Positions 5,920-38,359 of a stretch of 38,359 nucleotides of DNA are shown one piece after another (position 1 is the first letter of the stretch; every line of letters begins with the position of its first letter). Both the position numbers and the translations under genes were made by a program. The stretch comes from a virus, in IMG/VR virus record IMGVR_UViG_3300022690_001761, positions 1-38,359 of that record. One strand, 5' to 3'. The notes under the pieces are model-generated. The model worked only from the letters and a program-made list of their open reading frames with translations. It made no database searches and was not told the origin of the DNA.

Positions 5920-8055
5920 ATGGCACTCACTTTAACCACCGAACTTTCCACCGAAAAAGACAAACAAGGCCACAAACCGATACTATTGATCAACTTCAAA
6001 GACTTATCGATCCGGGTTGGCTCAAGAGATTATACACTTGGAGCCGATGCTTATCTTGATTTTATTCGACTTGGTTCCATCGGATCAATATCTCAATCGA
6101 TACCACAGTTGTTAAATCGAATTTCCAGTGTATCGACTATTGTATTTTCACAACCAGATTATAGAGGGAATTTAAGGAATGCTTATTTGGGTGCCGATAC
6201 AGATTTAACAGAATCGGCGGTTGAAATCGGATTGAAATTTGATACTGCATTGAATAATGCGGCTGACAATTTAATTCTATTCGATGGCTTTGTAGGCAGT
6301 TATAATGAATCGCAAGACGTATTAAAAATGAATCTGGAGACCAGGCACTATAAAAACCTTCCACCATTACCGCAAACATTAATCGTGGATGTAAATCCTG
6401 GGAGTGATATAAAAAATCGAAATATCGCTATTCCATTGCAATACGGTGATTTTTCATCTGTAATCGATTTTACTTTTTTCGGTGATTTTAATACCCTGGG
6501 GAATGGTTTAGCTATTGTGCCTTACAATCGGAGTGATCCTTCCACGTCACCCGGCAGTGATGGCGATAAATTATTTTTTAGTATATCCTCACATTTGATG
6601 AATCAGGTTCCTGCTGACAACTTTGGCGTTTCTAATGTTCCAGATGCGTTCTATTTTTTCAGGCGCAAGGGTAGGTGGATTCATTTAAATGCTGACAATA
6701 CAACGACAACCAATGCAGCAGGCGGAGCGGAATTTTCGGTTAATCGGCTTAACGGTGATACCGTTCAAGACAATTCAGCCACATTAATTTTATGGGGCGG
6801 TGCTGGTTATTCCGGGGGAGCCGATACTGTGGCCGGCAATATTGATTTGGCGCTGGATGGGTTAAGTGCAACATCTGCATTTGCTGATAGTGGATTTGGA
6901 ACGGCAGTGAAAGTTCAGAATTTCAATATTTCCGGGTTTACTAATGCAGATCAGAAATCAAATCAGCCGGATGGATATTTTTATTTGACGGCCAGAACTG
7001 CTGATGGAACGGCCACTATAAGGAAAAAAAGTGATGATTCTGTGCATGGCACACAAATAATAATAAATGCCGGAACTGCTTTAAATACCTGGGTAAAAAT
7101 CCCGATGGCTGCGCCCGATACAATTCCACTGGAAGATTTAAATGATTTTTATATAACAGTTGAAACGACGAATGCCGGCAGAATAGAAATAGCCGGTTTA
7201 ATATTCGCAGTGGATTTGCAACCTTATGATTCTGGAAGCGATGAACAGGCGTTATATTGTAAGTGTATTGGCCGGGAATTTGAATCGACGTTTGATGGTA
7301 GATATACTTTAGGAAATGCCATCACTACACCATCGACTTTTATAGAATCTCTATTTCGAGATGAATTTGGATTTACTGCAATAAATACCGATTCGTTTGA
7401 CAGATTTGAAACTACTTCCAGTTCGGAAATTATATCATCATCGATATTCAGACAGCAATCAGGTGAGAATATTTTAAGGGATATATCGCAAGGATTTGGT
7501 GTTGGAATCACGATAACGCCAACCGGCCAAGCTTTGGTTGTTAATTCAGATCCGACACAAGTATTTTCTGATTCGGGAACCGACACGCCGGGAGATGAGG
7601 ATATTTTCACTGATTCGGTATCAATTACAAGCAATTCATTCGATCAACATCCGATAATGAGAGGAACCTTTCAAAAATCGAGAAGTGATCCCAGGGGCAT
7701 CGTAAAACGCCGTGCGATGGATTACGGGCGATTATTCACATCAGACTACCTCTTTACCCAATTTGATGGCACAGGGGATGTTTCGAGTAGCCAAAACAAC
7801 TATATTTCAAATGCTGTGGCGGCGGGATTGACAAATTCAAGGATTGTTACTTGGTTGAATAATCAGAAATGGATTTTGAGCTTTAGAACTTATTTTAATG
7901 GGATTTCATTACAGTTGGGCGACGTGAAAAATGTAAGACATGATGATCTTGCCGATATAATTTTAGATAATCCGGTTAATTCTCAAAAATGGGTATTGCT
8001 GAGCCCTGAATTTCGATGGGATGGAACTATGAGGTTGTCTTTTATTGAGTTGTGA
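5920..8055 (+). CDS. Large tail/baseplate protein, 711 aa
   Basis: A long beta-rich virion-type protein without a signal peptide. Residues 100-180 (LILFDGFVGSYNESQD followed by MNLETRHYKNLPPLP) resemble the region of baseplate or tail-hub proteins that maps a rotated or offset domain. The middle (about 250-420) looks like a carbohydrate-binding or jelly-roll insertion (FYFFRRKGRW, GYFYLTARTADG). The C-terminal 250 residues are again hub-like, ending RLSFIEL. By size and position it is probably a central tail-tip protein. No catalytic motif is seen, and the hub assignment is inference. Confidence 0.65.
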   Translation: MALTLTTELSTEKDKQGHKPILLINFKDLSIRVGSRDYTLGADAYLDFIRLGSIGSISQSIPQLLNRISSVSTIVFSQPDYRGNLRNAYLGADTDLTESAVEIGLKFDTALNNAADNLILFDGFVGSYNESQDVLKMNLETRHYKNLPPLPQTLIVDVNPGSDIKNRNIAIPLQYGDFSSVIDFTFFGDFNTLGNGLAIVPYNRSDPSTSPGSDGDKLFFSISSHLMNQVPADNFGVSNVPDAFYFFRRKGRWIHLNADNTTTTNAAGGAEFSVNRLNGDTVQDNSATLILWGGAGYSGGADTVAGNIDLALDGLSATSAFADSGFGTAVKVQNFNISGFTNADQKSNQPDGYFYLTARTADGTATIRKKSDDSVHGTQIIINAGTALNTWVKIPMAAPDTIPLEDLNDFYITVETTNAGRIEIAGLIFAVDLQPYDSGSDEQALYCKCIGREFESTFDGRYTLGNAITTPSTFIESLFRDEFGFTAINTDSFDRFETTSSSEIISSSIFRQQSGENILRDISQGFGVGITITPTGQALVVNSDPTQVFSDSGTDTPGDEDIFTDSVSITSNSFDQHPIMRGTFQKSRSDPRGIVKRRAMDYGRLFTSDYLFTQFDGTGDVSSSQNNYISNAVAAGLTNSRIVTWLNNQKWILSFRTYFNGISLQLGDVKNVRHDDLADIILDNPVNSQKWVLLSPEFRWDGTMRLSFIEL

Positions 8056-13111: not shown

Positions 13112-14488
13112 TCATATAGCCAGCATCTTAACCGGTTTATGATTCTTCTTACTTTCAGCTTGTTTTTTAGCAACATACCACTTCAAATAACGAATTAGTT
13201 TTGAATCGTTGTAATTTAACGCTTTCATTCTTTGATTTAACTCGCCTTTTTTCAAATATGGTGATTGAACTTGTTCTAACGCGCCATCCGCATCGGTAAA
13301 CATTCTTCCTTTAGCCTTCTCATCAATTTTCAAGTCTTTATACTTATTGAAAATCATATTCATTACCGCATCCTCTGAACGATAGCCGAAATATGCTGAA
13401 ATGTTAGGCCTAAAACCTCCCTCTAAGGTTTGCTTGTCTGGATATTGAGTAATAAAATTGGCAAAGATTCCTTGTGATCGTTTTTGCGTAGCCAGTCGGG
13501 TAAATCCTTTTAGAAGTGCGGCAGATGCACCCTTTTTTTCTTCAAGTGCAAGATATAATTCATCAATAAAAAGAATGATTGGATAGTTTAAATGAACTAT
13601 TTCATTTTTAATATTAACCGATTTACAATCATAATAATGTTGAACACCTTGTTTTTTTATATAAAAACTCCTGAATGCGGATATTTCATCAAGTACTTTT
13701 AAGATATGATATGCTTCCCATTTATCACCGGTTGTAATGATATTCCCAATTTTGTCAAGCTGTCCGTAACGTTCATTGTTTTTGAAATCCATCAGAATCA
13801 AAGGCAATTTTTTTTCATGTATTTGGAGCATCATAGATTCTGAACCGGATGTTTTACCTGATCCTTGCTCGCCAAACGCAAGGGTATATCTTAAATCGTT
13901 AATATTCTTTCTCATCCATCCATCAACCGTTTTTCCTATAATTATATCCCAATATGACGTGGAAGGGATTTCTGAAAACTTTACATTTGTAGTCAATCCT
14001 TTATCGGTGAAATTAACTTTCACAACTCCAGGCAATTGACCTATATCTGGGTGATATGCCCTACCTACTCTATAAAACATCAATCCGGTTGCATCGCTAA
14101 AGTCTTGTATCTTGCTCAGCAATGCTTCGGTTTGGCCTTTTGTTGTTATGATAGCAGTATTGCCCTTTACGGAAACAGGAAATAAAATATCATCTTCATT
14201 GTTGGGATTGAATTTAAAAAACTTTAACTCCTTGCAAGCGGTATGAAAAAGTTCTATAAAGTTATTTTTTTTGAATCCCTCAAATTTGAGCAGTTTTTTA
14301 TATAGACCATAACCCAATAATGCAACCATCCATAGAGATGAAAATATTTTGAAAAAGGTTCCATAACCCAAAACCTCATTGGGATCAGGTATAACCATAA
14401 AGTTGTAATGGATATGCACCCAAATCGGTAATGACAATGCCAAAACGATATACAAAATTCTAAAGAAATTTCTAAAAAGTTTTTTCAT
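13112..14488 (-). CDS. FtsK/VirD4-like membrane ATPase, 458 aa
   Basis: Start chosen at MKKLFRNFF, because the longer frame begins in a region coding for another small gene. Residues 9-28 and about 46-62 are two membrane helices. Then comes an ATPase domain: Walker A GEQGSGKT (206-213), Walker B ILFIDE (305-310) and a FITQYPD segment (345-351) with the glutamine typical of the FtsK/HerA/VirD4 group. This architecture moves DNA in division (FtsK) or conjugation (VirD4/TraG). The genome also has its own terminase, so this is an additional DNA pump. The neighbours are small membrane proteins and a membrane-tethered HTH protein. The family assignment is strong; the role is inference. Confidence 0.75.
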   Translation of the reverse strand: MKKLFRNFFRILYIVLALSLPIWVHIHYNFMVIPDPNEVLGYGTFFKIFSSLWMVALLGYGLYKKLLKFEGFKKNNFIELFHTACKELKFFKFNPNNEDDILFPVSVKGNTAIITTKGQTEALLSKIQDFSDATGLMFYRVGRAYHPDIGQLPGVVKVNFTDKGLTTNVKFSEIPSTSYWDIIIGKTVDGWMRKNINDLRYTLAFGEQGSGKTSGSESMMLQIHEKKLPLILMDFKNNERYGQLDKIGNIITTGDKWEAYHILKVLDEISAFRSFYIKKQGVQHYYDCKSVNIKNEIVHLNYPIILFIDELYLALEEKKGASAALLKGFTRLATQKRSQGIFANFITQYPDKQTLEGGFRPNISAYFGYRSEDAVMNMIFNKYKDLKIDEKAKGRMFTDADGALEQVQSPYLKKGELNQRMKALNYNDSKLIRYLKWYVAKKQAESKKNHKPVKMLAI

Positions 14489-14499
14489 GTCTGTTAATA

Positions 14500-14634
14500 T
14501 TAAAAACCTGCACCTAATATCAATGTGCCAACAAGGAATATCCAAAATATTATACCGATAAAACATTCATCCTCATTACCATTAAAAAGAATACAATCAT
14601 AAATAAATCCTTTGGATTTCTGTTTGTTTTTCAT
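14500..14634 (-). CDS. Small membrane protein, 44 aa
   Basis: It has a good RBS (TTAGGAGATTTTATG) and an N-terminal polar half with two cysteines, followed by one membrane helix (IGIIFWIFLVGTLILGAGF). It lies immediately upstream of the FtsK/VirD4-like ATPase in the same direction and could be a partner. Function unknown. Confidence 0.5.
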   Translation of the reverse strand: MKNKQKSKGFIYDCILFNGNEDECFIGIIFWIFLVGTLILGAGF

Positions 14635-26326: not shown

Positions 26327-26836
26327 ATGATAGACAAAAAATCTAAAATCGCTTTAATTATTATCGGAGTATCTTTTGTAATTCTCATCTTTCTGGCTGC
26401 TTGTGTTGAAATACCCCATAAATGGGATTATACCGCTGAATTGTCAGGAGAAAATGAAGTTCCACCGGTTACCACTAACACAACCGGAACCGCCAAGTTC
26501 AAGATCAATTCTGATTCAACAGCAATCAGATTTGAGTTACAAATAAAAGACGGTATTGATATTTTAGGCAGTGTCGGCGCTCACATTCATTGTGGTGCAG
26601 TCGGTGAGAACGGCGATATAATTGCCTTTCTTGCCGGAGTAATACCGGGTGGATTTGATGGAAGTGTGACTGTAAAAGCAAATATAACATCTGATAACTT
26701 TTTTTTAAGTGAGGAATGCGGAACTGACATAAAAGAACTTATTGAATCTATTAATGCTGGAAATGTTTATGTGAATGTTCATAGTATTGCGAATCCCAGT
26801 GGTGAGATAAGAGGACAAGTTGAAAAAGATTTATAG
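26327..26836 (+). CDS. CHRD-domain lipoprotein, 169 aa
   Basis: The N-terminal hydrophobic helix ends LIFLAAC, a clear lipobox with cysteine at residue 25. From residue 34 the protein matches the CHRD domain: YTAELSGENEVPPV then TGTAKFKI, AHIHCGAVGENG and NVYVNVHSIANPSGEIRGQ. CHRD domains occur in secreted bacterial and animal proteins (chordin), and their role in phages is unknown. It overlaps the methyltransferase gene by 17 bases, so it is co-transcribed. Probably a surface lipoprotein made during lysogeny. Confidence 0.75.
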   Translation: MIDKKSKIALIIIGVSFVILIFLAACVEIPHKWDYTAELSGENEVPPVTTNTTGTAKFKINSDSTAIRFELQIKDGIDILGSVGAHIHCGAVGENGDIIAFLAGVIPGGFDGSVTVKANITSDNFFLSEECGTDIKELIESINAGNVYVNVHSIANPSGEIRGQVEKDL

Positions 26837-28028
26837 TATCGATGATTTAAAGCTTGACAAACTAAATGCGAATAAAGGCACTGACGAAGGCCGTAAACTA
26901 TTAAAAAGTTCAATCGAAAGTTATGGTTTTGGTCGAAGTATTCTGGTCGACAAAGATGGTAATGTGATTGCCGGCAATAAGACTCTTGAAAAGGCCAAAG
27001 AATTAAACCTTCCGGTTAAAGTAGTAAATACCGATGGTAAAGAAATTATCATTCATCAACGAAATGATTTATCAATCGAATCGAAAGAGGGTAGGGAGCT
27101 TTCAATTGTAGATAATCGAAGTTCACAAATAGGTCTTGATTGGGATGCGGAAACTATGAATTCACTTGATGTTATTGTGGATTGGGAAAAGATAGGATTC
27201 TCAAAAGAAGATATTGATGAGATAATGGCTTCGATTGAACAACCATTTGAAGGTTTAACCGATCCCGATGATATACCCGAAGATGTTGAAACAAAGTGCA
27301 AGACTGGTGATTTGTGGGAATTGGGACGGCATCGGGTGTTGTGTGGAGATGCCACGGATGCGGATGCGGTGGACAGGTTGATGGAAGGCAATAAAGCGGA
27401 CATGGTTTTTACTGACCCGCCGTATAGAATGGATGCTGAGGGTGGTTCAAACCAGCCCATAGGAAAAGCGGCTGCTAAACTTGGGGAATCAATAAAACAT
27501 CTTTGTGACTTTGATCCTATCAAGTTTTTAGAAATAATAAACATGGTATTTAAAAATAAACAATTTAATGCTTACATATTTTGTAACAAAGACTTAGTGC
27601 CGGATTACTTAAACTGGTCAATCAAAAAAGGGTATGCCTTTAATATTCTTTTTTGGAAAAAACCCAATGCAATTCCACTTGGTGGCCAACACCGTCCAGA
27701 TATTGAGTACCTACTTTTGTTTAGAAAATCAGCTATATGGAACAACGGATTAAGTAATGTTAATTATTCAAAATGTTTAGAATATGATAGAGAATCTTTT
27801 TTCGATCATCCAACCATGAAGCCAGTCGACTTGATTTGTAATGAAATTAAACTGTCTTCTTTTAAGGATAGTATTGTTTTTGATTTTTTTCTCGGTTCCG
27901 GCTCCACACTAATCGCCGCCGAAAAAACAATACGCATCTGCTACGGCATGGAAATTGAACCACATTATTGCGATGTTATAATTCAAAGATGGGAAGATTT
28001 TACAGGAAAAGAAGCTAAACAAATATAA
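26820..28028 (+). CDS. ParB-domain / DNA methyltransferase fusion, 402 aa
   Basis: Residues 1-115 are a ParB/Srx-type N-terminal domain (ESYGFGRSILVDKDGNVIAG, without a DNA-binding HTH). Then LWELGRHRVLCGDATD leads to a DNA methyltransferase with DPPY (199-202) and, near the C-terminus, FLGSGST (357-363), which binds S-adenosylmethionine. This fusion is common next to phage terminase genes and probably methylates adenine or N4-cytosine in phage DNA. The ParB-like part would not by itself bind parS. It sits directly before the small terminase. Confidence 0.85.
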   Translation: MKKIYSIDDLKLDKLNANKGTDEGRKLLKSSIESYGFGRSILVDKDGNVIAGNKTLEKAKELNLPVKVVNTDGKEIIIHQRNDLSIESKEGRELSIVDNRSSQIGLDWDAETMNSLDVIVDWEKIGFSKEDIDEIMASIEQPFEGLTDPDDIPEDVETKCKTGDLWELGRHRVLCGDATDADAVDRLMEGNKADMVFTDPPYRMDAEGGSNQPIGKAAAKLGESIKHLCDFDPIKFLEIINMVFKNKQFNAYIFCNKDLVPDYLNWSIKKGYAFNILFWKKPNAIPLGGQHRPDIEYLLLFRKSAIWNNGLSNVNYSKCLEYDRESFFDHPTMKPVDLICNEIKLSSFKDSIVFDFFLGSGSTLIAAEKTIRICYGMEIEPHYCDVIIQRWEDFTGKEAKQI

Positions 28029-28044
28029 GTATGGCATTTATAAA

Positions 28045-28506
28045 ATGGCTGGACAAGGCGAAAATCAAACTTCAGAACGAAGAATTAAGGCAAGAGAGAA
28101 ACAAGGTAAGGCTCTTGAATATCGTAAAGGCGGGGTAACATTTCAAAAAATAGCTGATTTGGTGGGATATAAAAATGCGTGTGGTGCGGAGAAAGCTGTG
28201 AAAGCGGCCTTAGACCGTATCACAGAAGCTCCAGCCAAAGAGGTTCGCAAGTTAGAGCTTGAACGTTTGGATAATATATTGACTTCAATATGGGGGCAAA
28301 TAGCCAAAGGCCATTTAGGAGCAATCGATAGAGCGCTCAAAATTATGGAACGGCGGGCAAGATATTTGGGTTTAGATACGCCATTAAAACAAGAACACTT
28401 CTTGGATGGAAATATCACAATCCAAATTGTTACACCTGAAATAGAAGAAATGGAAGAAATGGAAGAAAAAGAGTTTTCAATAAATGCAAATCAAAATTCC
28501 GATTAA
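28045..28506 (+). CDS. terS: Terminase small subunit, 153 aa
   Basis: The N-terminal region (GVTFQKIADLVGYKNACGAEKAVKAAL) is a helix-turn-helix of the sort used to recognise the packaging site. A helical middle (ELERLDNILTSIWGQIAKGHLGAIDRALKI) and an acidic tail follow. It overlaps the large terminase start by about 23 bases, the usual arrangement of terS before terL. The identification is by context and helix pattern rather than strong sequence signature. Confidence 0.7.
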   Translation: MAGQGENQTSERRIKAREKQGKALEYRKGGVTFQKIADLVGYKNACGAEKAVKAALDRITEAPAKEVRKLELERLDNILTSIWGQIAKGHLGAIDRALKIMERRARYLGLDTPLKQEHFLDGNITIQIVTPEIEEMEEMEEKEFSINANQNSD

Positions 28507-29658
28507 TCCCAATTTTCAACATTTATTAAATGTTACTAAACGATATATCGTTTTAGTAGGTGGGCGTGGCTCCGGGAAGTCGTATTACAATGCACAGCAA
28601 GTTTTATTATGGATGTTAAATCAAAAGGTTAAAGAAAGAGTCTTACTTTGTAAAAAAGTGTTAAGAACTATCAGGAAATCACAATATCAATTACTAAGGG
28701 ATTTAATATTTCAGTATGATCTTTCTCCTTATTTCAAATTCAATAGCACTGAAATGAAAATCACCTGTCATGTTACAGGATCAGAAACCTTTGCGCTGGG
28801 CTTAGATGATCCAGAAAAAACAAAATCGACTGAGGGTATAACAAAAGTATGGGCAGAAGAAACAACCGACTTAAATTACAAGGATTTTCTCGATATTGAC
28901 TTGCTTATGAGAGGCCTGTCAAACTCAAATTATCAAATGTTGTTATCTTTCAATCCTATAAATGAGCATCATTGGTTGAATGATTTTTTTTTCTCAATCC
29001 GAAAAAAGATGCTTATGTATTTAAATCGACTTATCAAGATAATGTTTTCATTGATGAAAAAAACATTGAAGTTTTGCGAGCAATCCGTGATCCTGGGCTC
29101 CGCAAAGTTTATCTCGAAGGTGAATGGGGAGTATTGCAGAATATTATTTATGCTCCCTATGAATTTCTCGATAAGTATCCAGAAATGCACGAAACGATTT
29201 ATGGCCTTGATTTTGGATTCAATAATCCCAATGCATTGCTTGAAATCGGCATAAGAGACCAGGAATACTATCTAACCCAAAGGCTGTATAAATCCAAAAT
29301 GACAAATAATGATTTAATAAGAGAACTTGAAAGCCAGAAAATAGATAAGAATGCCATTATTTATGCAGATTCGGCGGAGCCTGCCAGGATTGAGGAAATA
29401 TCCCGCGCCGGTTATAATATTCAGCCGGCAGAGAAAAATGTAAAAGATGGTATTGATTTTGGTAAAAGTTCTTTATTTTATACGAAAACAGACAATGAAG
29501 ATTTGAATAAAGAACGTCAATCTTATAGATGGCGCGAAAATAAAAACGGTGAGATTTTAGATGAACCTGAAAAATTTGATGATCATTTAATGGATGCTAA
29601 ACGTTATGCCGTTTATACTCATGCACGAAAACCTCAACCGGATGTAAGAATACTTTGA
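28484..29658 (+). CDS. terL: Terminase large subunit (PBSX-like), split by a -1 frame change
   Basis: The packaging ATPase is in the first frame: Walker A GGRGSGKS (26-33), Walker B KVWAEE (121-126) and the LSFNP coupling motif. The nuclease is in the second frame: YGLDFGFNNPNAL, IYADSAEPARI and FDDHLMDAKRY with the three acidic residues. The two parts join only by a -1 shift at the T run 28984-28992 (T TTT TTT in frame). The joined protein reads through as WLNDFFF then LNPKKDAYVFKS, giving a family-typical sequence. Either programmed frameshifting or one missing T in the assembly explains it. Confidence 0.85.
28984..28992 (+). promoter_or_regulatory. Possible -1 frameshift slippery run
   Basis: Nine T residues in the large terminase gene. 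In frame, T TTT TTT fits the X XXY YYZ pattern for -1 slippage. The alternative is a one-base deletion in the assembly. Confidence 0.5.
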
Positions 29659-31106: not shown

Positions 31107-33161
31107 ATGTTCCAACAAGCAATACAAACTGAATTAAAAGAATTAGGTTTAATCGATGCTTCGATAAAGCAAGTCGGAGCTATTGCTACGATGGGAGATT
31201 TATTTTCGTTTTCCTCATCGGATGAATTTTACCCGTCAGATGCCGAGGCTCTTGCGCTTGCATATGAAAACCTGGTGACGATGTATCGGGCAATCGATAT
31301 TCGCGCTTCAAGTTTTGCAGCATTGCCTTTAAAGATAATCCAGAAAAAGGGCGATGAGGAAATAGACGTATCGGATCGGGATCAACTCTTTGTATTGAAC
31401 TCACCAAATGCTTTTGATTCTTTCTATTCATTTTATTATGAATCGATATCATTACTTGATATTCAAGGGGAATTGTTTTGGAATTTCGAGCGCGATGAAC
31501 GTGGCAATATTAATCAATTATTCTCAGACTGGCGTAGCCATGAAATTAAAGTCAAGGGTGATCCGGTTAAATTGATTAATCGCTATGAAAGAACGGCGAA
31601 CGGAAAGGTAACTTCACATTCTCCCGAAGATGTTTTCTTTATAAAGTCATTCAATTACTTTTCGATTCTCCGTGGCTTTTCGCGGATGGTATCATCGAGA
31701 GCCAACATAATCACCTCCTTAAACTCCGAGAAATTCCTTCAAAAGTTCTTTGCTCAAGGCATGTTTCCAGGTGCTGTAGCTGAAACAGATGGGAAACTCT
31801 CGGATGATGAGTTTACAAGATTGCGGGAATTACTGGATTCTATTTATGGTAGTGTTGAAAAAATGCACAAGGTAGCCTTGCTTGAGGGTGGTTTAAAATT
31901 GAAGGTTTTAACTAAATCTTCCCTTTCTGAGAATCAAATTATCCCATTACTCAATTTCAATGATCAAAAAATCGCCACTCTTTATGGCGTTCCTATGGAA
32001 TTATTAAATGATCCGCGTGGATCATCTTCATTATCCAGGGAAGCTATAAAGGCCGCTCAATCGGTATTTTGGACTGGTACAATGTTGCCACTTTCCCGGC
32101 AAGTATTATCAGAAATGAATAAAAATCTTGTGCCCCGATTAACAAAACTCGAAGGGGTTGAAGTTCAACACGATTTTTCTAAAGTGCTGGCATTACGCGA
32201 AGATGCCGAACAGAGAGATAAAAGATATTTTCAGGGCGTATCACTTGGCATAATAAGCCGCGATGAAGCCAGGCCGGTAGTTTTTGAACTTGAACCCACA
32301 GGATTAGAGGAGATGGAAGAATTTACCGCGCCGATAAATCTGGTTCCGGTTGGTGAAGGTGTCACACAACAAGAACAACAACGAGGATTTATCGACAAGG
32401 ATTTCCACGATCGTTCAAAATCCTGGATGAAAAATGCTCGACTATTCAACAAACATGAACCAAAGTTTTTTAGTGCGATAAATAAGTTTTTTAATGAACA
32501 GGAAATTAGAGCTTTAGAAAGATGGCGTAGGGCAACTGATGCATTTAAATCAAAAAAACAAATAACGCTCACCAAAGATCACGAATTTTCATCTATTGCT
32601 CTTGATACACCCAATGAAAATATGTTGATCGTGGAAGCTCTTTTACCCCCTACAACCGCTGCGGTAAGTGATGGGGCGGCATCTATACTTTCAACGTTGG
32701 GTTTAGAATTTAACGCTATCGATACGTTCGTGATAAGTTCGGTAGGCGAAAGGGTGATTAACTTCTCGGAAATAAATGGAACGACTGCTAGGCTAATTCA
32801 GGAAACCTTGAGGGAAGGGATCAGCCTCGGTGAAGGCATACCACAATTGACGGACAGAATACAGGGCGTTTTTACAAATGCAACAAGGTCGAGGTCGCAA
32901 TTGATTGCACGGACTGAAAGCGTGGGAAGTGTAAATACGGGCATTTTATCAGGCGGTAAGCAGGCAGGATTTACAACGAAAGTATGGTTGACAAGCAGGG
33001 ATTTAGCGGTTAGAGATTCACACAAAATCGATGGTCAAAGAGTAAATATAAATGATACTTTTAAAGTATTGTCTGGATATACTGGGTTAAGTGCTTCCTA
33101 TCCCTCGGATTTCAACGAGCGGTGCTCGGTTTTAATGTCAAATAAACCGCCAAACATTTAG
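31107..33161 (+). CDS. Portal protein fused to a MuF-like head domain, 684 aa
   Basis: Residues 45-400 match HK97-type portals (LVTMYRAIDIRASSFAALPLKI; KVALLEGGLKLKVL; GVPMELLNDPRGSS). The C-terminal hundred residues match the Mu gpF-like head morphogenesis domain: LIARTESVGSVNTGIL, WLTSRDLAVRDSHKIDGQRV and FNERCSVLMSNK. Portals form the ring through which DNA enters the head. Fusion with gpF-like sequence is known in some phages. The size fits. RBS is weak. The RDSHKIDGQRV motif may be an enzyme-like remnant. Confidence 0.85.
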   Translation: MFQQAIQTELKELGLIDASIKQVGAIATMGDLFSFSSSDEFYPSDAEALALAYENLVTMYRAIDIRASSFAALPLKIIQKKGDEEIDVSDRDQLFVLNSPNAFDSFYSFYYESISLLDIQGELFWNFERDERGNINQLFSDWRSHEIKVKGDPVKLINRYERTANGKVTSHSPEDVFFIKSFNYFSILRGFSRMVSSRANIITSLNSEKFLQKFFAQGMFPGAVAETDGKLSDDEFTRLRELLDSIYGSVEKMHKVALLEGGLKLKVLTKSSLSENQIIPLLNFNDQKIATLYGVPMELLNDPRGSSSLSREAIKAAQSVFWTGTMLPLSRQVLSEMNKNLVPRLTKLEGVEVQHDFSKVLALREDAEQRDKRYFQGVSLGIISRDEARPVVFELEPTGLEEMEEFTAPINLVPVGEGVTQQEQQRGFIDKDFHDRSKSWMKNARLFNKHEPKFFSAINKFFNEQEIRALERWRRATDAFKSKKQITLTKDHEFSSIALDTPNENMLIVEALLPPTTAAVSDGAASILSTLGLEFNAIDTFVISSVGERVINFSEINGTTARLIQETLREGISLGEGIPQLTDRIQGVFTNATRSRSQLIARTESVGSVNTGILSGGKQAGFTTKVWLTSRDLAVRDSHKIDGQRVNINDTFKVLSGYTGLSASYPSDFNERCSVLMSNKPPNI

Positions 33162-34447: not shown

Positions 34448-35065
34448 ATGTTCACAATGAAAGTTTTGCGTTTATCTTTCTTGATAATTTCGATTGCATT
34501 TATACTATCAACATTTTGTCTAATAACCAATTGCACATCTAAGGTTGATGCTCAACCCGGATTCGATCAAATCCATAACTGGCCGATAACGGTTAGAGAA
34601 TTGCCAGGGAGTGTTCAGTTTTCTGGTATTGTAAAATTTCAGATTAAAAGTGATACGACTGTTTTCACGCGAGCAATTGATATAAGCTATTATAAAACAA
34701 TATTACCAATTTATACCTATGTTCAAGTAGGAGATTCAGAGGCAGTAATATTAGCTGGATTTGAAGGAACCTCTCATCCTGGTGTTTTTGATTCTACTTT
34801 CTTTTTTGAGTCGGAGGCTAAGCATTTTGAAATATTAGTAACGAATCAAACAAAAATTTTTCTTTGCAATTATGAAACGGGATGCCCAAGTACAAACGTA
34901 GGTCTCTGTTTCAACCAGCCATTTGGAATGCAATATCTTAGATTGAAGTTTACCGGAATGCTGGGAAACACAATAGGCGCGGAGGTGCGATGGTCAATCT
35001 TAATGCAAAAATTGGAAAAGTCGAAAGAATCACGGGCTTTTAAAATAGTTAGTACAAAACCATAG
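34448..35065 (+). CDS. Secreted protein A, 205 aa (paralogue pair)
   Basis: A signal peptide or lipoprotein-type leader (residues 1-30, ending CLITNC) precedes a beta-rich domain that aligns with the next gene. Shared features include an FSG-V-F run, a FEGTSHPGVFDSTFFFE block, two cysteine-bearing loops and FGMQYLRLKFTG with VRWSILM near the end. The lipobox is imperfect because asparagine precedes the cysteine. Secreted proteins in the head module are unusual. Possibly a superinfection-exclusion or surface factor. Confidence 0.6.
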   Translation: MFTMKVLRLSFLIISIAFILSTFCLITNCTSKVDAQPGFDQIHNWPITVRELPGSVQFSGIVKFQIKSDTTVFTRAIDISYYKTILPIYTYVQVGDSEAVILAGFEGTSHPGVFDSTFFFESEAKHFEILVTNQTKIFLCNYETGCPSTNVGLCFNQPFGMQYLRLKFTGMLGNTIGAEVRWSILMQKLEKSKESRAFKIVSTKP

Positions 35066-35074
35066 AGGACTATA

Positions 35075-35659
35075 ATGAAAATATTCATCAAAATATTTTG
35101 TATTATAACAATTTTTACTTTGTCATTGCTCGCACAATTTCCCGCTGATAGTATAAATAATTGGAAGGTGTCGGTTAATGAATCTGCTTCGTTTGCGGAA
35201 TTTTCCGGTGTAGTAGATTTTGCCAAAGACTCATCGATTGACTTATTTACACAAGGGATTGATATGAGTTTTTACGATTTAAGGAATCCCATTTATGCTT
35301 ATTACAATGCTGGGGGATCGAATACAAATGTTTTAATATCATTTGATGGTAGCAGCGATCCAGGTCTTTTTGACACAACGTTTTTTGCAGAAACAGACAG
35401 TAATCATTGGGTATCTTTATTGACAGATCAAGATTTATCCGCTATCGTAAATTATCGTACAGACTGTTTAAAGGATACCATAAATCCAGTTATTAGCTGT
35501 TTTAATAAAAGTTTTGGGATAAAATATATTAAAATAAAATTTGATGGCCAAATAACGACAAATTCAACTGCGGCAACGGTGCGTTGGAGTTTTATTGTGC
35601 CTAAAAAACTTAATGCCAAATCATCCGGCGCATTCAATATAAAAGATACAAGGCCATAA
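35075..35659 (+). CDS. Secreted protein B, 194 aa (paralogue pair)
   Basis: A signal peptide (IFCIITIFTLSLLAQ) precedes the same beta domain as the previous gene: FSGVVDF, FDGSSDPGLFDTTFFAE, FGIKYIKIKFDG and VRWSFIVPKK align in order. Two cysteines near residues 130-145 match those of its sister and could form a disulphide in the periplasm. The duplication and shared signal suggest one envelope function done by both. Family unknown. Confidence 0.6.
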   Translation: MKIFIKIFCIITIFTLSLLAQFPADSINNWKVSVNESASFAEFSGVVDFAKDSSIDLFTQGIDMSFYDLRNPIYAYYNAGGSNTNVLISFDGSSDPGLFDTTFFAETDSNHWVSLLTDQDLSAIVNYRTDCLKDTINPVISCFNKSFGIKYIKIKFDGQITTNSTAATVRWSFIVPKKLNAKSSGAFNIKDTRP

Positions 35660-35669
35660 AGGGAAAATT

Positions 35670-37700
35670 ATGGAAAACACTTTAAAGTTTTGCAAAGCCA
35701 ATACAAAACAAATCGATGAAGCAAATGGGATTATTCCTTTTACGCTTACGACTTTTACGGTAGATAGAGATGGAGATGTGATCTTCCCGGCTGGTGGAAT
35801 ATTGACTAATTTTAGGAAAAATCCTATCTCTCTTTTTATGCATAATGCCTTTGATGTTCCCCCGGCCAAGTTGTTACCCGATACGATACGTTCCAATACT
35901 AAGGAAATGACCGGGGATGTGCAATTTGATATTGTCAATGATCCCTTTGCAAAATTTTTATTCGATAAATATATTGACGGATATCTTTCTGCTGGTTCAA
36001 TTAGATTTATTCCAATTGAATTTGACACGGAAATCGCGATAGAGGGTCAAACGGGATTCGGGATTAAAGTATGGGAGCTTATCGAATTTTCACTCGTAAC
36101 AATTCCGTCAAATACTCAAGCTTTGAGAAAAGAATATGATGAAGCAAGACAAGGTTTATATCTTGATTATCAAAAACCTTATTATTCTGTAATTGAAAAG
36201 TTTAGCAAATATAAAAATCCCAACATAGATATTGAAAAGCAAATTTTCCCCTTTTGTATAGGTGAAGGATGTAAAGATTTAGCGGATACCAAAGAAAAAG
36301 AAATTGAAATACTGGCAATTGATCCTAAAGAAGATGAAAAAATAATGATGGAAATTGCAACCGGAATCGCAACGTCAATCAAAAAAGATTGTGAATGTGA
36401 GGAAAATAAATCATCTAATGGATTTATCGACACAATATTCAAAGGATTTGATAAATCGTTTTTGGTTGAAGCTCAAGAAATATCACCTGCCAACAAAGAA
36501 CTTGAATGGGCATCAAAGTTTTGTGAGTGTGAAGTTAAAAATTTATATGTCACAACAACCGGATTCAATGATTTATGGAAAGGATCATTTCTTTCAGAAC
36601 TATTCAATAAAATGATAGATTGGGATTTAAAAGATTCAAGAGATTTAAATATTGATGGGAAAGAATATCCACCATGTTATGAAACTATTCAATTGAATAG
36701 TAAAGAATTTATTTCTACAATGATTTCAGGTTTGGAGTTTTGGAATGCACAAAAATTTAATATCGTTATAAAATACAAATTATATGGATATAATGAAAGA
36801 TTAATATTTTACATAGACAAAGATTATTCTAAAGACCTAAACAATCTGTTGTCTACTTGCTGGAATAGTGCAAAAACAAACCACAAACTAAAAAACGAAT
36901 CGTTTACATTATCCGGGAAATTTATCGACAAAACAAATCTCGATTGGGATGATGTATTTTTGACAGATTTTAATACCGACATAGTAAAAAAGGCCATTAA
37001 TTCAATAAATAATTTGACAGATAGGGCTCCGAATCGTGGGTTAATTTTTATGGGATCACCGGGGAATGGCAAAACATTTACAGGGAAAGTCGTTTTAAAT
37101 AAAAGCAAATCAACATTTATATGGATTACTGCAAAGGATTTATATTGGATGGGTAGCGTGTCTGGATTGTCTTATGCTTTTGATGTTGCCAAAACTCTTG
37201 CTCCTTGTATTTTATTTATTGAGGATATTGACTCATTTATAAGTTCCACATTAATTGATCTGTTGAAAACCGAGATGGATGGAATTGAACAATCATCCGG
37301 TATTACTACTATTTTAACTACAAACTTTCCTGAAAGATTACCGAAAGCCTTGATTGACAGGCCGGGTAGATTTCACGACGTTTTGGATTTTGATTTTCCC
37401 GATTCTAAACAAATAATAAAAATGCTTTCATATTGGTATAATGGTTTAACGAAAACATTTATTCAAGAAATAGTCGAAGATTTAAAAGGATTAAGCGGTG
37501 CACATATCTTTGAATTAGTTCAGTATTCTAAGATGATCGAAGATGAAGAAAAGAAATTACCTGAAATAAGTTTTATGATAGCTTATGAAAAAACTTTGAT
37601 CCAGAAAGAAACAATAGAAAATTTAAAGTTTTCAAACAAAAGTGAAACTGTCAGCGAAAGACAGTTTCTTGAGATGCTTAAATCTCATGTAAATGATTAA
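35670..37700 (+). CDS. HK97 prohead protease fused to a classical AAA ATPase, 676 aa
   Basis: Residues 1-155 match the HK97-type prohead protease (peptidase family U35/S78): SLFMHNAFD with catalytic histidine H58, YLSAGSIRFIP with the nucleophile serine near 107, and WELIEFSLVTIPSN. A middle region (about 160-450) has several cysteines and no known fold. Residues 455-600 form a classical AAA ATPase: Walker A GSPGNGKT (462-469), Walker B CILFIEDID (513-521), sensor ILTTN and the arginine-finger motif LIDRPGRF (561-568). The gene is one unbroken frame with MCP directly after it. The protease normally trims the head proteins; the ATPase may unfold them or aid assembly. The fusion is seen in sequence; the joint role is inference. 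Confidence 0.85.
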   Translation: MENTLKFCKANTKQIDEANGIIPFTLTTFTVDRDGDVIFPAGGILTNFRKNPISLFMHNAFDVPPAKLLPDTIRSNTKEMTGDVQFDIVNDPFAKFLFDKYIDGYLSAGSIRFIPIEFDTEIAIEGQTGFGIKVWELIEFSLVTIPSNTQALRKEYDEARQGLYLDYQKPYYSVIEKFSKYKNPNIDIEKQIFPFCIGEGCKDLADTKEKEIEILAIDPKEDEKIMMEIATGIATSIKKDCECEENKSSNGFIDTIFKGFDKSFLVEAQEISPANKELEWASKFCECEVKNLYVTTTGFNDLWKGSFLSELFNKMIDWDLKDSRDLNIDGKEYPPCYETIQLNSKEFISTMISGLEFWNAQKFNIVIKYKLYGYNERLIFYIDKDYSKDLNNLLSTCWNSAKTNHKLKNESFTLSGKFIDKTNLDWDDVFLTDFNTDIVKKAINSINNLTDRAPNRGLIFMGSPGNGKTFTGKVVLNKSKSTFIWITAKDLYWMGSVSGLSYAFDVAKTLAPCILFIEDIDSFISSTLIDLLKTEMDGIEQSSGITTILTTNFPERLPKALIDRPGRFHDVLDFDFPDSKQIIKMLSYWYNGLTKTFIQEIVEDLKGLSGAHIFELVQYSKMIEDEEKKLPEISFMIAYEKTLIQKETIENLKFSNKSETVSERQFLEMLKSHVND

Positions 37701-37718: not shown

Positions 37719-38359
37719 ATGGCCGAGAAATCCATAACGAAAAAGCAAGCAGAAGAGTTTGCAAAAAGTTTTCTAAAGTCGAAGGAGATTGTAGACGAAG
37801 AAAAAGAAAAAGGCGCAAAATCTACAGGTGATTTAGACGCTATAGGTATGGATAAGTTAGCGAAAGCGGTTGCCGCTGAAATGCTTGTTATCCAGGGCAA
37901 AGATGAAACAACACAAAAAAAGGAAAAGACAAATTCGGAATTTCAATCTGGAGAATCATTCCTCACCGATTATACCAAAATTCCAGAAGATTCTTCTATC
38001 GATATAAATACCGGATTAGGCAAGATGAAAATGTTTGATTCGGAAATCGATCAATGCTTTCCCAAGCGGGATGCTGAACTCATCAAGAGTTGGAAAAAAT
38101 GGAATGATGATATTTTGATATTATCGCACACATTAGCGGTAGCAAGGAAAGATCATTATAAAAATGTTATGATGACCTTAAAAAGTTACGATGCCATGCG
38201 TCATAGGTGGAACCACGATTCCGAATTGCGAAAAGCGATTTCAACTGGCGGAGCCGGAGCCGGGGCAGAATGGATGCCAACCGAAATGTCGGCTAATATT
38301 CTGGAGCTTTTACAAATGGCCTTAAGTGTTGCGCCATCTTTTAATCAAGTGGCAATGCC
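37719..38359 (+). CDS. HK97-type major capsid protein, N-terminal part (3' truncated)
   Basis: The first 100 residues are helical, charged and lysine/glutamate-rich (KKQAEEFAKSFLKSKE), as in the delta or scaffold domain removed by the prohead protease. The later part has GGAGAGAEWMPTEMSANILELL, which matches the start of the HK97 fold. Position right behind the protease gene is the standard order. The window ends inside the gene. A processing site somewhere near residues 110-180 is likely but cannot be read off. Confidence 0.75.
   Translation, partial: MAEKSITKKQAEEFAKSFLKSKEIVDEEKEKGAKSTGDLDAIGMDKLAKAVAAEMLVIQGKDETTQKKEKTNSEFQSGESFLTDYTKIPEDSSIDINTGLGKMKMFDSEIDQCFPKRDAELIKSWKKWNDDILILSHTLAVARKDHYKNVMMTLKSYDAMRHRWNHDSELRKAISTGGAGAGAEWMPTEMSANILELLQMALSVAPSFNQVAM

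Follow-up and report, generated by a model that had tools for sequence, protein, structure and literature searches.

Can a prohead protease and an ATPase of the AAA type be parts of one polypeptide in a tailed phage, and what would the ATPase do in a head operon? This question is raised by a forward-strand frame in the window, the term used here for the whole virus record of 38,359 bases. Head maturation in tailed phages is regarded as relying on proteolysis and on the energy that the shell stores, ATP being spent only on DNA packaging, and prohead proteases elsewhere are not known to need ATP. The frame at 35670–37700 has 676 codons, an ATG start and no internal stop, which upholds the claim of the initial annotation that both enzymes lie in one 676-aa frame; they follow each other in the order protease (aa 21–160), linker (about 163–271) and two-domain ATPase (273–655). 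Sequence comparison supports a fusion that is real and recurrent, that lies in the head operon and in which both enzymes are apparently active. The features of the region are the following:

31107..33161, + strand: portal protein fused to a MuF head-morphogenesis domain (PF04860, E 6.5e-51; PF04233, E 1.2e-7)
35670..37700, + strand: protease-AAA fusion protein, 676 aa (open reading frame; SD-like AAGGG 5' of the ATG)
35730..36149, + strand: HK97-type prohead protease domain, aa 21–160 (phrog_11321, E 2e-15; pLDDT mostly about 90 or more; family HMM)
35841..35843, + strand: conserved histidine H58 (38 of 39 sequences; invariant in a 32-sequence alignment)
35997..35999, + strand: conserved serine S110, likely nucleophile (39 of 39 sequences)
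36084..36086, + strand: conserved glutamate E139 (39 of 39 sequences)
36156..36482, + strand: flexible linker, aa 163–271, with non-conserved cysteines (pLDDT mostly below 50; 35–321 aa in relatives)
36483..36965, + strand: middle domain of the ATPase module, aa 272–432, beta-rich, without Pfam match, Bcs1-like fold suggested (71-sequence model, pLDDT 91.8; VIA-align top ten all Bcs1, Z 6.1–6.9)
36966..37634, + strand: AAA ATPase domain and lid, aa 433–655 (PF00004, E 8e-20; model)
37053..37076, + strand: Walker A GSPGNGKT, aa 462–469 (G462, G465, G467, K468 and T469 invariant in 45 relatives)
37206..37232, + strand: Walker B CILFIEDID, aa 513–521 (E518, D519 and D521 invariant in 45 relatives)
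37317..37373, + strand: TTN sensor 1 (550–552) and RPGRF arginine-finger region (564–568) (alignment)
37719..38357, + strand: start of the capsid gene, an N-terminal region of about 170 aa followed by the start of an HK97-like capsid protein, truncated at the window end (homologue of the gene that follows the fusion in L038 and L041; SD AAAGGAG)

The same domain order was sought in other genomes and proved to be recurrent, being found in dozens of divergent contigs from different metagenomes. Relatives were first found by a DNA pattern that captures the atypical distance from sensor 1 to the arginine fingers; it matched 70 viral contigs, with 53 sequences (window included) in the same AAA family. 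An alignment-led scan reported 186 relatives, of which 80 were kept, and the two sets were reduced to 78 members, among which a few near-copies are left. In this AAA-led survey, 64 members have protease and then AAA in one frame, three have the order AAA-protease-capsid (L022, L051 and L067, polyproteins of 1071–1112 aa), three have adjacent separate frames and eight are truncated at contig ends. A scan whose query was the middle domain alone, and which therefore could not favour proteases, returned 78 distinct proteins with both enzymes in one frame (75 protease-first and the three AAA-protease-capsid chains), besides four adjacent-gene cases and a remainder of cut-off members or distant stand-alone AAAs; it gave no member with intact flanks that lacked a nearby protease. 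Where protease and AAA are separate genes they are adjacent (L075, L128, L152 and L201). Neither of the outcomes named beforehand as refuting the fusion, i.e., a frame error or separate-gene relatives whose ATPase acts elsewhere, was found. Frame breaks near the junction do occur in single relatives such as L069, but an artefact, whether a frame error or a chimeric assembly joining two genes, is hardly credible, being refuted by the same fusion in so many divergent contigs of different origin.

The protease-AAA fusions are a widespread and apparently undescribed group among uncultured tailed phages. The family was absent from 50,697 phage isolate records searched by tblastn with three queries, and the fusion was absent from plasmid records; a scan of about 85,000 cellular genomes yielded a single hit, a short MAG contig classified as Cloacimonadota, and of 125 Cloacimonadota genomes two matched the middle domain, in one case distantly. 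No matches came from IMG/VR searches with the window protein, with its parts alone or with the portal, and alignment with distant stand-alone AAAs gave no usable conserved stretch. A full-text search of open-access journal papers found no published report of the fusion. Both parts are of known kinds and, within the scope searched, their combination appears to be new.

The assignment of the N-terminal domain to the HK97-type proteases was borne out by profile search, in which aa 24–169 match phrog_11321 and the protease part also matches phrog_617 (E 1.7e-11) and phrog_80, annotated as 'head maturation protease' (E 5.7e-6). Against TIGR01543 the window protease scores 25 bits (E 1.7e-5), below the NCBIfam cut-off of 59, and against Pfam S78 it scores 14.8 bits (E 0.03), below the curated cut-off of 21, which several relatives pass, e.g., L016, L022 and L051. 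The conservation of H58, S110 and E139 was counted in 39 distinct sequences, a set that contains two ordinary unfused proteases; H58 had been named correctly, the serine first placed at S107 is corrected to S110, and the third conserved residue is E139. The domain shares with HK97-type prohead proteases (PF04586/TIGR01543; phrog_80, phrog_11321) the same fold region, the His/Ser/Glu residues and the slot between portal and capsid genes, and differs from them in having an AAA ATPase on the same chain and scores under the Pfam and NCBIfam curated cut-offs.

The AAA part matches Pfam PF00004 over aa 458–574 with 72 bits (cut-off 21.2), and the module is complete as annotated, with GSPGNGKT, CILFIEDID, TTN and RPGRF present as quoted. 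Walker A, Walker B, sensor 1 and the arginine fingers are invariant among relatives; T551, N552, P554, R564, P565, G566, R567 and F568 belonged to the search pattern of the first set, so that their invariance is not independent evidence. The stretch from sensor 1 to the arginine finger is one residue longer than in most aligned stand-alone phage AAAs. The module is under strong purifying selection, with dN/dS of 0.03–0.13 where dS could be computed. Pore loop 1 is WMG in the window; the canonical aromatic-hydrophobic-Gly loop is present in 11 of the 78 members and some aromatic residue in 57, hence threading of the FtsH kind is not an obvious mechanism.

The AlphaFold2 model of the window protein, built with 32 sequences (pLDDT 80.8), has two confident units (21–160 and about 273–650) with a disordered join. 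Among solved structures, the best matches over both the middle domain and the AAA are Bacillus subtilis YjoB (Z 20.6, 353 residues aligned, rmsd 7.4), for which a role as substrate-specific chaperone has been proposed, and Bcs1 (Z 18.6, 340 aligned, rmsd 11.6); FtsH, proteasomal Rpt, Vps4 and p97 match the AAA core. The middle domain is conserved throughout the family without a Pfam match and found no sequence match in the PDB; modelled alone, it has Bcs1 as all ten of its best entries, with Z values below the tool's safe level and just above unrelated folds, so the likeness to Bcs1 is suggestive. The modelled middle domain and AAA would have the plan of Bcs1, a mitochondrial AAA translocase, and of YjoB; the window protein differs from both in being viral and protease-fused and in having a middle domain without detectable sequence kinship to theirs. 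According to published descriptions (PMC12219900, PMC11143374), Bcs1 moves folded proteins between two cavities and does not thread them. The ring of Bcs1, which encloses a chamber, is a heptamer.

The first description of the ATPase as of FtsH/Cdc48 type is therefore retained for the sequence of the AAA core and not for the module, as middle domain and AAA together are nearest to the YjoB/Bcs1 fold and few members have the canonical threading loop. The window AAA scores 58.7 bits against TIGR01241, the FtsH equivalog, over the AAA part only and far below the cut-off of 600; the fusion has neither a curated FtsH match nor the zinc metalloprotease that marks the FtsH family. FtsH and Lon likewise hold ATPase and peptidase on one polypeptide; the fusion differs from them in its serine prohead protease, mostly N-terminal, in its long disordered linker and in the rarity of the canonical loop.

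The linker is charged and has a median length of 133 aa among relatives. In the window its cysteines are at positions 196, 201, 241 and 243; the cysteine-bearing linker of the initial annotation thus exists, but the cysteines are not conserved, and their absence from the linkers of 28 of 64 relatives led to its rejection as a functional element. C287, a cysteine in 34 of 40 sequences, sits in the folded middle domain and not in the linker. An internal start yielding a free AAA was also considered and rejected, M226/M227 of the window having no SD-like site, unlike the starts of the fusion and of the capsid gene; no clear internal start site was found at the AAA-protease junction of the three capsid-fused members.

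The head operon is a constant setting. The capsid gene is the next gene, or lies in the same frame, in 49 of the 52 loci with room for it, and a portal gene is found at most 3 kb upstream in 29 of 41. In L022, L051 and L067 the AAA module stands ahead of a complete protease-capsid chain; residues 451–1102 of L051 are 44–47% identical to the protease-capsid chain of PAJU2 and its relatives (phrog_617); the matches start at residue 448 of L051 or later, so that the AAA module of about 445 residues is absent from the PAJU2-like phages. Protease-capsid polyproteins are also described in some thaumarchaeal proviruses (PMC6563490).

In the AAA tree, whose inner forks are weakly resolved and in which the window is on a long branch, the AAAs of the family form one clade apart from stand-alone phage AAAs (support 100/100), and the AAA-module HMM scores at least 370 bits in the family and no more than about 200 bits in every other AAA of the set. 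The change in the order of AAA and protease is probably secondary, because the capsid-fused members nest inside the AAA clade. The stand-alone AAAs of phages KPP25 (ORF048) and FSL SP-076 (gene 115) have a similar AAA core and module size; unlike the fusion family they are unfused and have no annotated head gene nearby, and related AAAs that stand alone fall outside the fusion clade.

Close relatives whose AAAs are 85–91% identical, with similar capsid genes, can have proteases that are only 38–48% identical, which indicates that the ATPase is not tuned to one protease. Identities are 0.91 for AAA, 0.92 for capsid and 0.38 for protease in L134/L136, and 0.82, 0.36 and 0.44, respectively, in L022/L067. 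In these two pairs and in L045/L060 nearly the same AAA is found with a divergent protease, as if recombination in the linker had swapped the protease.

A role of the fusion in head assembly or maturation is by far the likeliest, because the AAA is constantly linked to the protease, can be fused to either end of it, is joined to the capsid chain in some genomes and keeps its position in the operon. Our main reading, to which a probability of roughly one half is given, is that the ATPase serves head assembly while joined to the prohead protease, acting as a remodelling ring of the Bcs1/YjoB plan. We infer that a ring forms and hydrolyses ATP, and we infer its substrate and the sequence of steps, as follows: the C-terminal half (middle domain and AAA) would form the ring, which would bind head proteins, e.g., the scaffold or N-terminal segments of the capsid protein, and remodel them using ATP; the flexible linker would hold the serine protease beside this remodelling, and during prohead maturation the remodelled segments would be cut or the ATPase would be cut free. 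The infrequent threading loop and the Bcs1/YjoB-like plan speak for a chaperone or remodeller of head proteins with a chamber, and less for threading as in FtsH. The conserved active sites of both enzymes, the purifying selection on the AAA module and the zinc motifs of two extensions, presumably DnaJ-like, also speak for the main reading. Against it stand the modest similarity of the middle domain to Bcs1, its lack of a sequence match in the PDB, the apparent independence of other prohead proteases from ATP and the exchange of proteases. More tentatively, and at somewhat less than even odds, the fusion may be an ATP-driven head-maturation machine in which a chaperone-like AAA ring, linked covalently to the protease (and, in part of the genomes, also to the capsid chain), remodels head proteins for assembly or cutting.

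Other explanations separate ATP from proteolysis or take the ATPase out of head formation. The ring might aid only the folding or assembly of the capsid protein, before or during shell formation, with the protease later cutting the linker to remove the AAA and the two activities uncoupled. This is unlikely, though the YjoB/Bcs1-like fold, the AAA fused to the protease-capsid chain in three genomes and the zinc motifs, taken to be DnaJ-like, in extensions of L015 and L047 would suit it; so would the clade of L134/L136, which keeps AAA and capsid alike while the protease is swapped, but the AAA sits between protease and capsid gene, so that linkage alone could explain such co-inheritance, and in L022/L067 similar AAAs go with dissimilar capsids. 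It is improbable that the AAA is cargo, carried into the prohead via the protease, cut free, kept in the virion and delivered with the DNA to act in the host. In phage T4 the head protease trims internal proteins that are packaged, a protease tether would put the AAA inside the prohead, and in several pairs conservation is higher for the AAA than for the protease, which would fit a constant partner; on the other side, the capsid-fused members would imply one AAA per capsid subunit, a bulky load, and no cleavage site was found. Quite improbable, finally, is a mobile AAA module that works elsewhere, for instance in DNA metabolism, and shares a well-expressed head gene: the module is exchangeable and can precede or follow the protease, some stand-alone phage AAAs have a related middle domain (17–55 bits) and related AAAs lie near replication genes, but among the clade members found with intact flanks none lacks a protease close by, and tree and HMM score both set the clade apart from the stand-alone AAAs.

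The conserved fusion of an intact AAA to a maturation protease, with the capsid chain joined to them in three genomes, means that some lineages may add an ATP-dependent step. On the more tentative reading of a head-maturation machine, this would be a capsid-maturation ATPase distinct from the DNA-packaging terminase, and ATP-driven head maturation, if shown, would be categorically new. The fusion is a testable handle on scaffold removal or capsid chaperoning and a compact natural case in which a serine protease and an AAA ATPase are coupled.

Most members carry an additional extension at the C-terminus, and 31 of 45 extensions tested form one similarity cluster; no convincing family match was found for the extensions. 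A GRxLSxxN-like motif, which we take to occur at the ends of other prohead proteases, is present in 24 of 57 extensions, and CxxCxGxG motifs, presumably like DnaJ zinc fingers, are found in two, L015 (7694–11851) and L047 (3006–5783). In L069 (5071–5629 and 5531–8147, reverse strand) the protease is split by a frame break near its start.

Between portal and protease in the window, two tandem paralogues (34448–35065 and 35075–35659, +; mutual phmmer 1e-42) have signal-peptide-like starts and no convincing family match in Pfam or PHROG; a 711-aa frame at 5920–8055 (+) likewise gave no Pfam or PHROG match. The large terminase lies in two overlapping forward frames, with the ATPase half (PF04466) at 28484–29254 and the nuclease half (PF17288) at 29074–29658. 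The split may come from a frameshift, either programmed or a sequencing error, or these may be two separate genes. A ParB-like domain is fused to a DNA methyltransferase at 26820–28028 (+; phrog_498, phrog_620) and adjoins a gene for a CHRD-domain protein (26327–26836), and an FtsK/SpoIIIE-like protein is encoded on the reverse strand at 13112–14566 (phrog_1358, E 1.7e-22).
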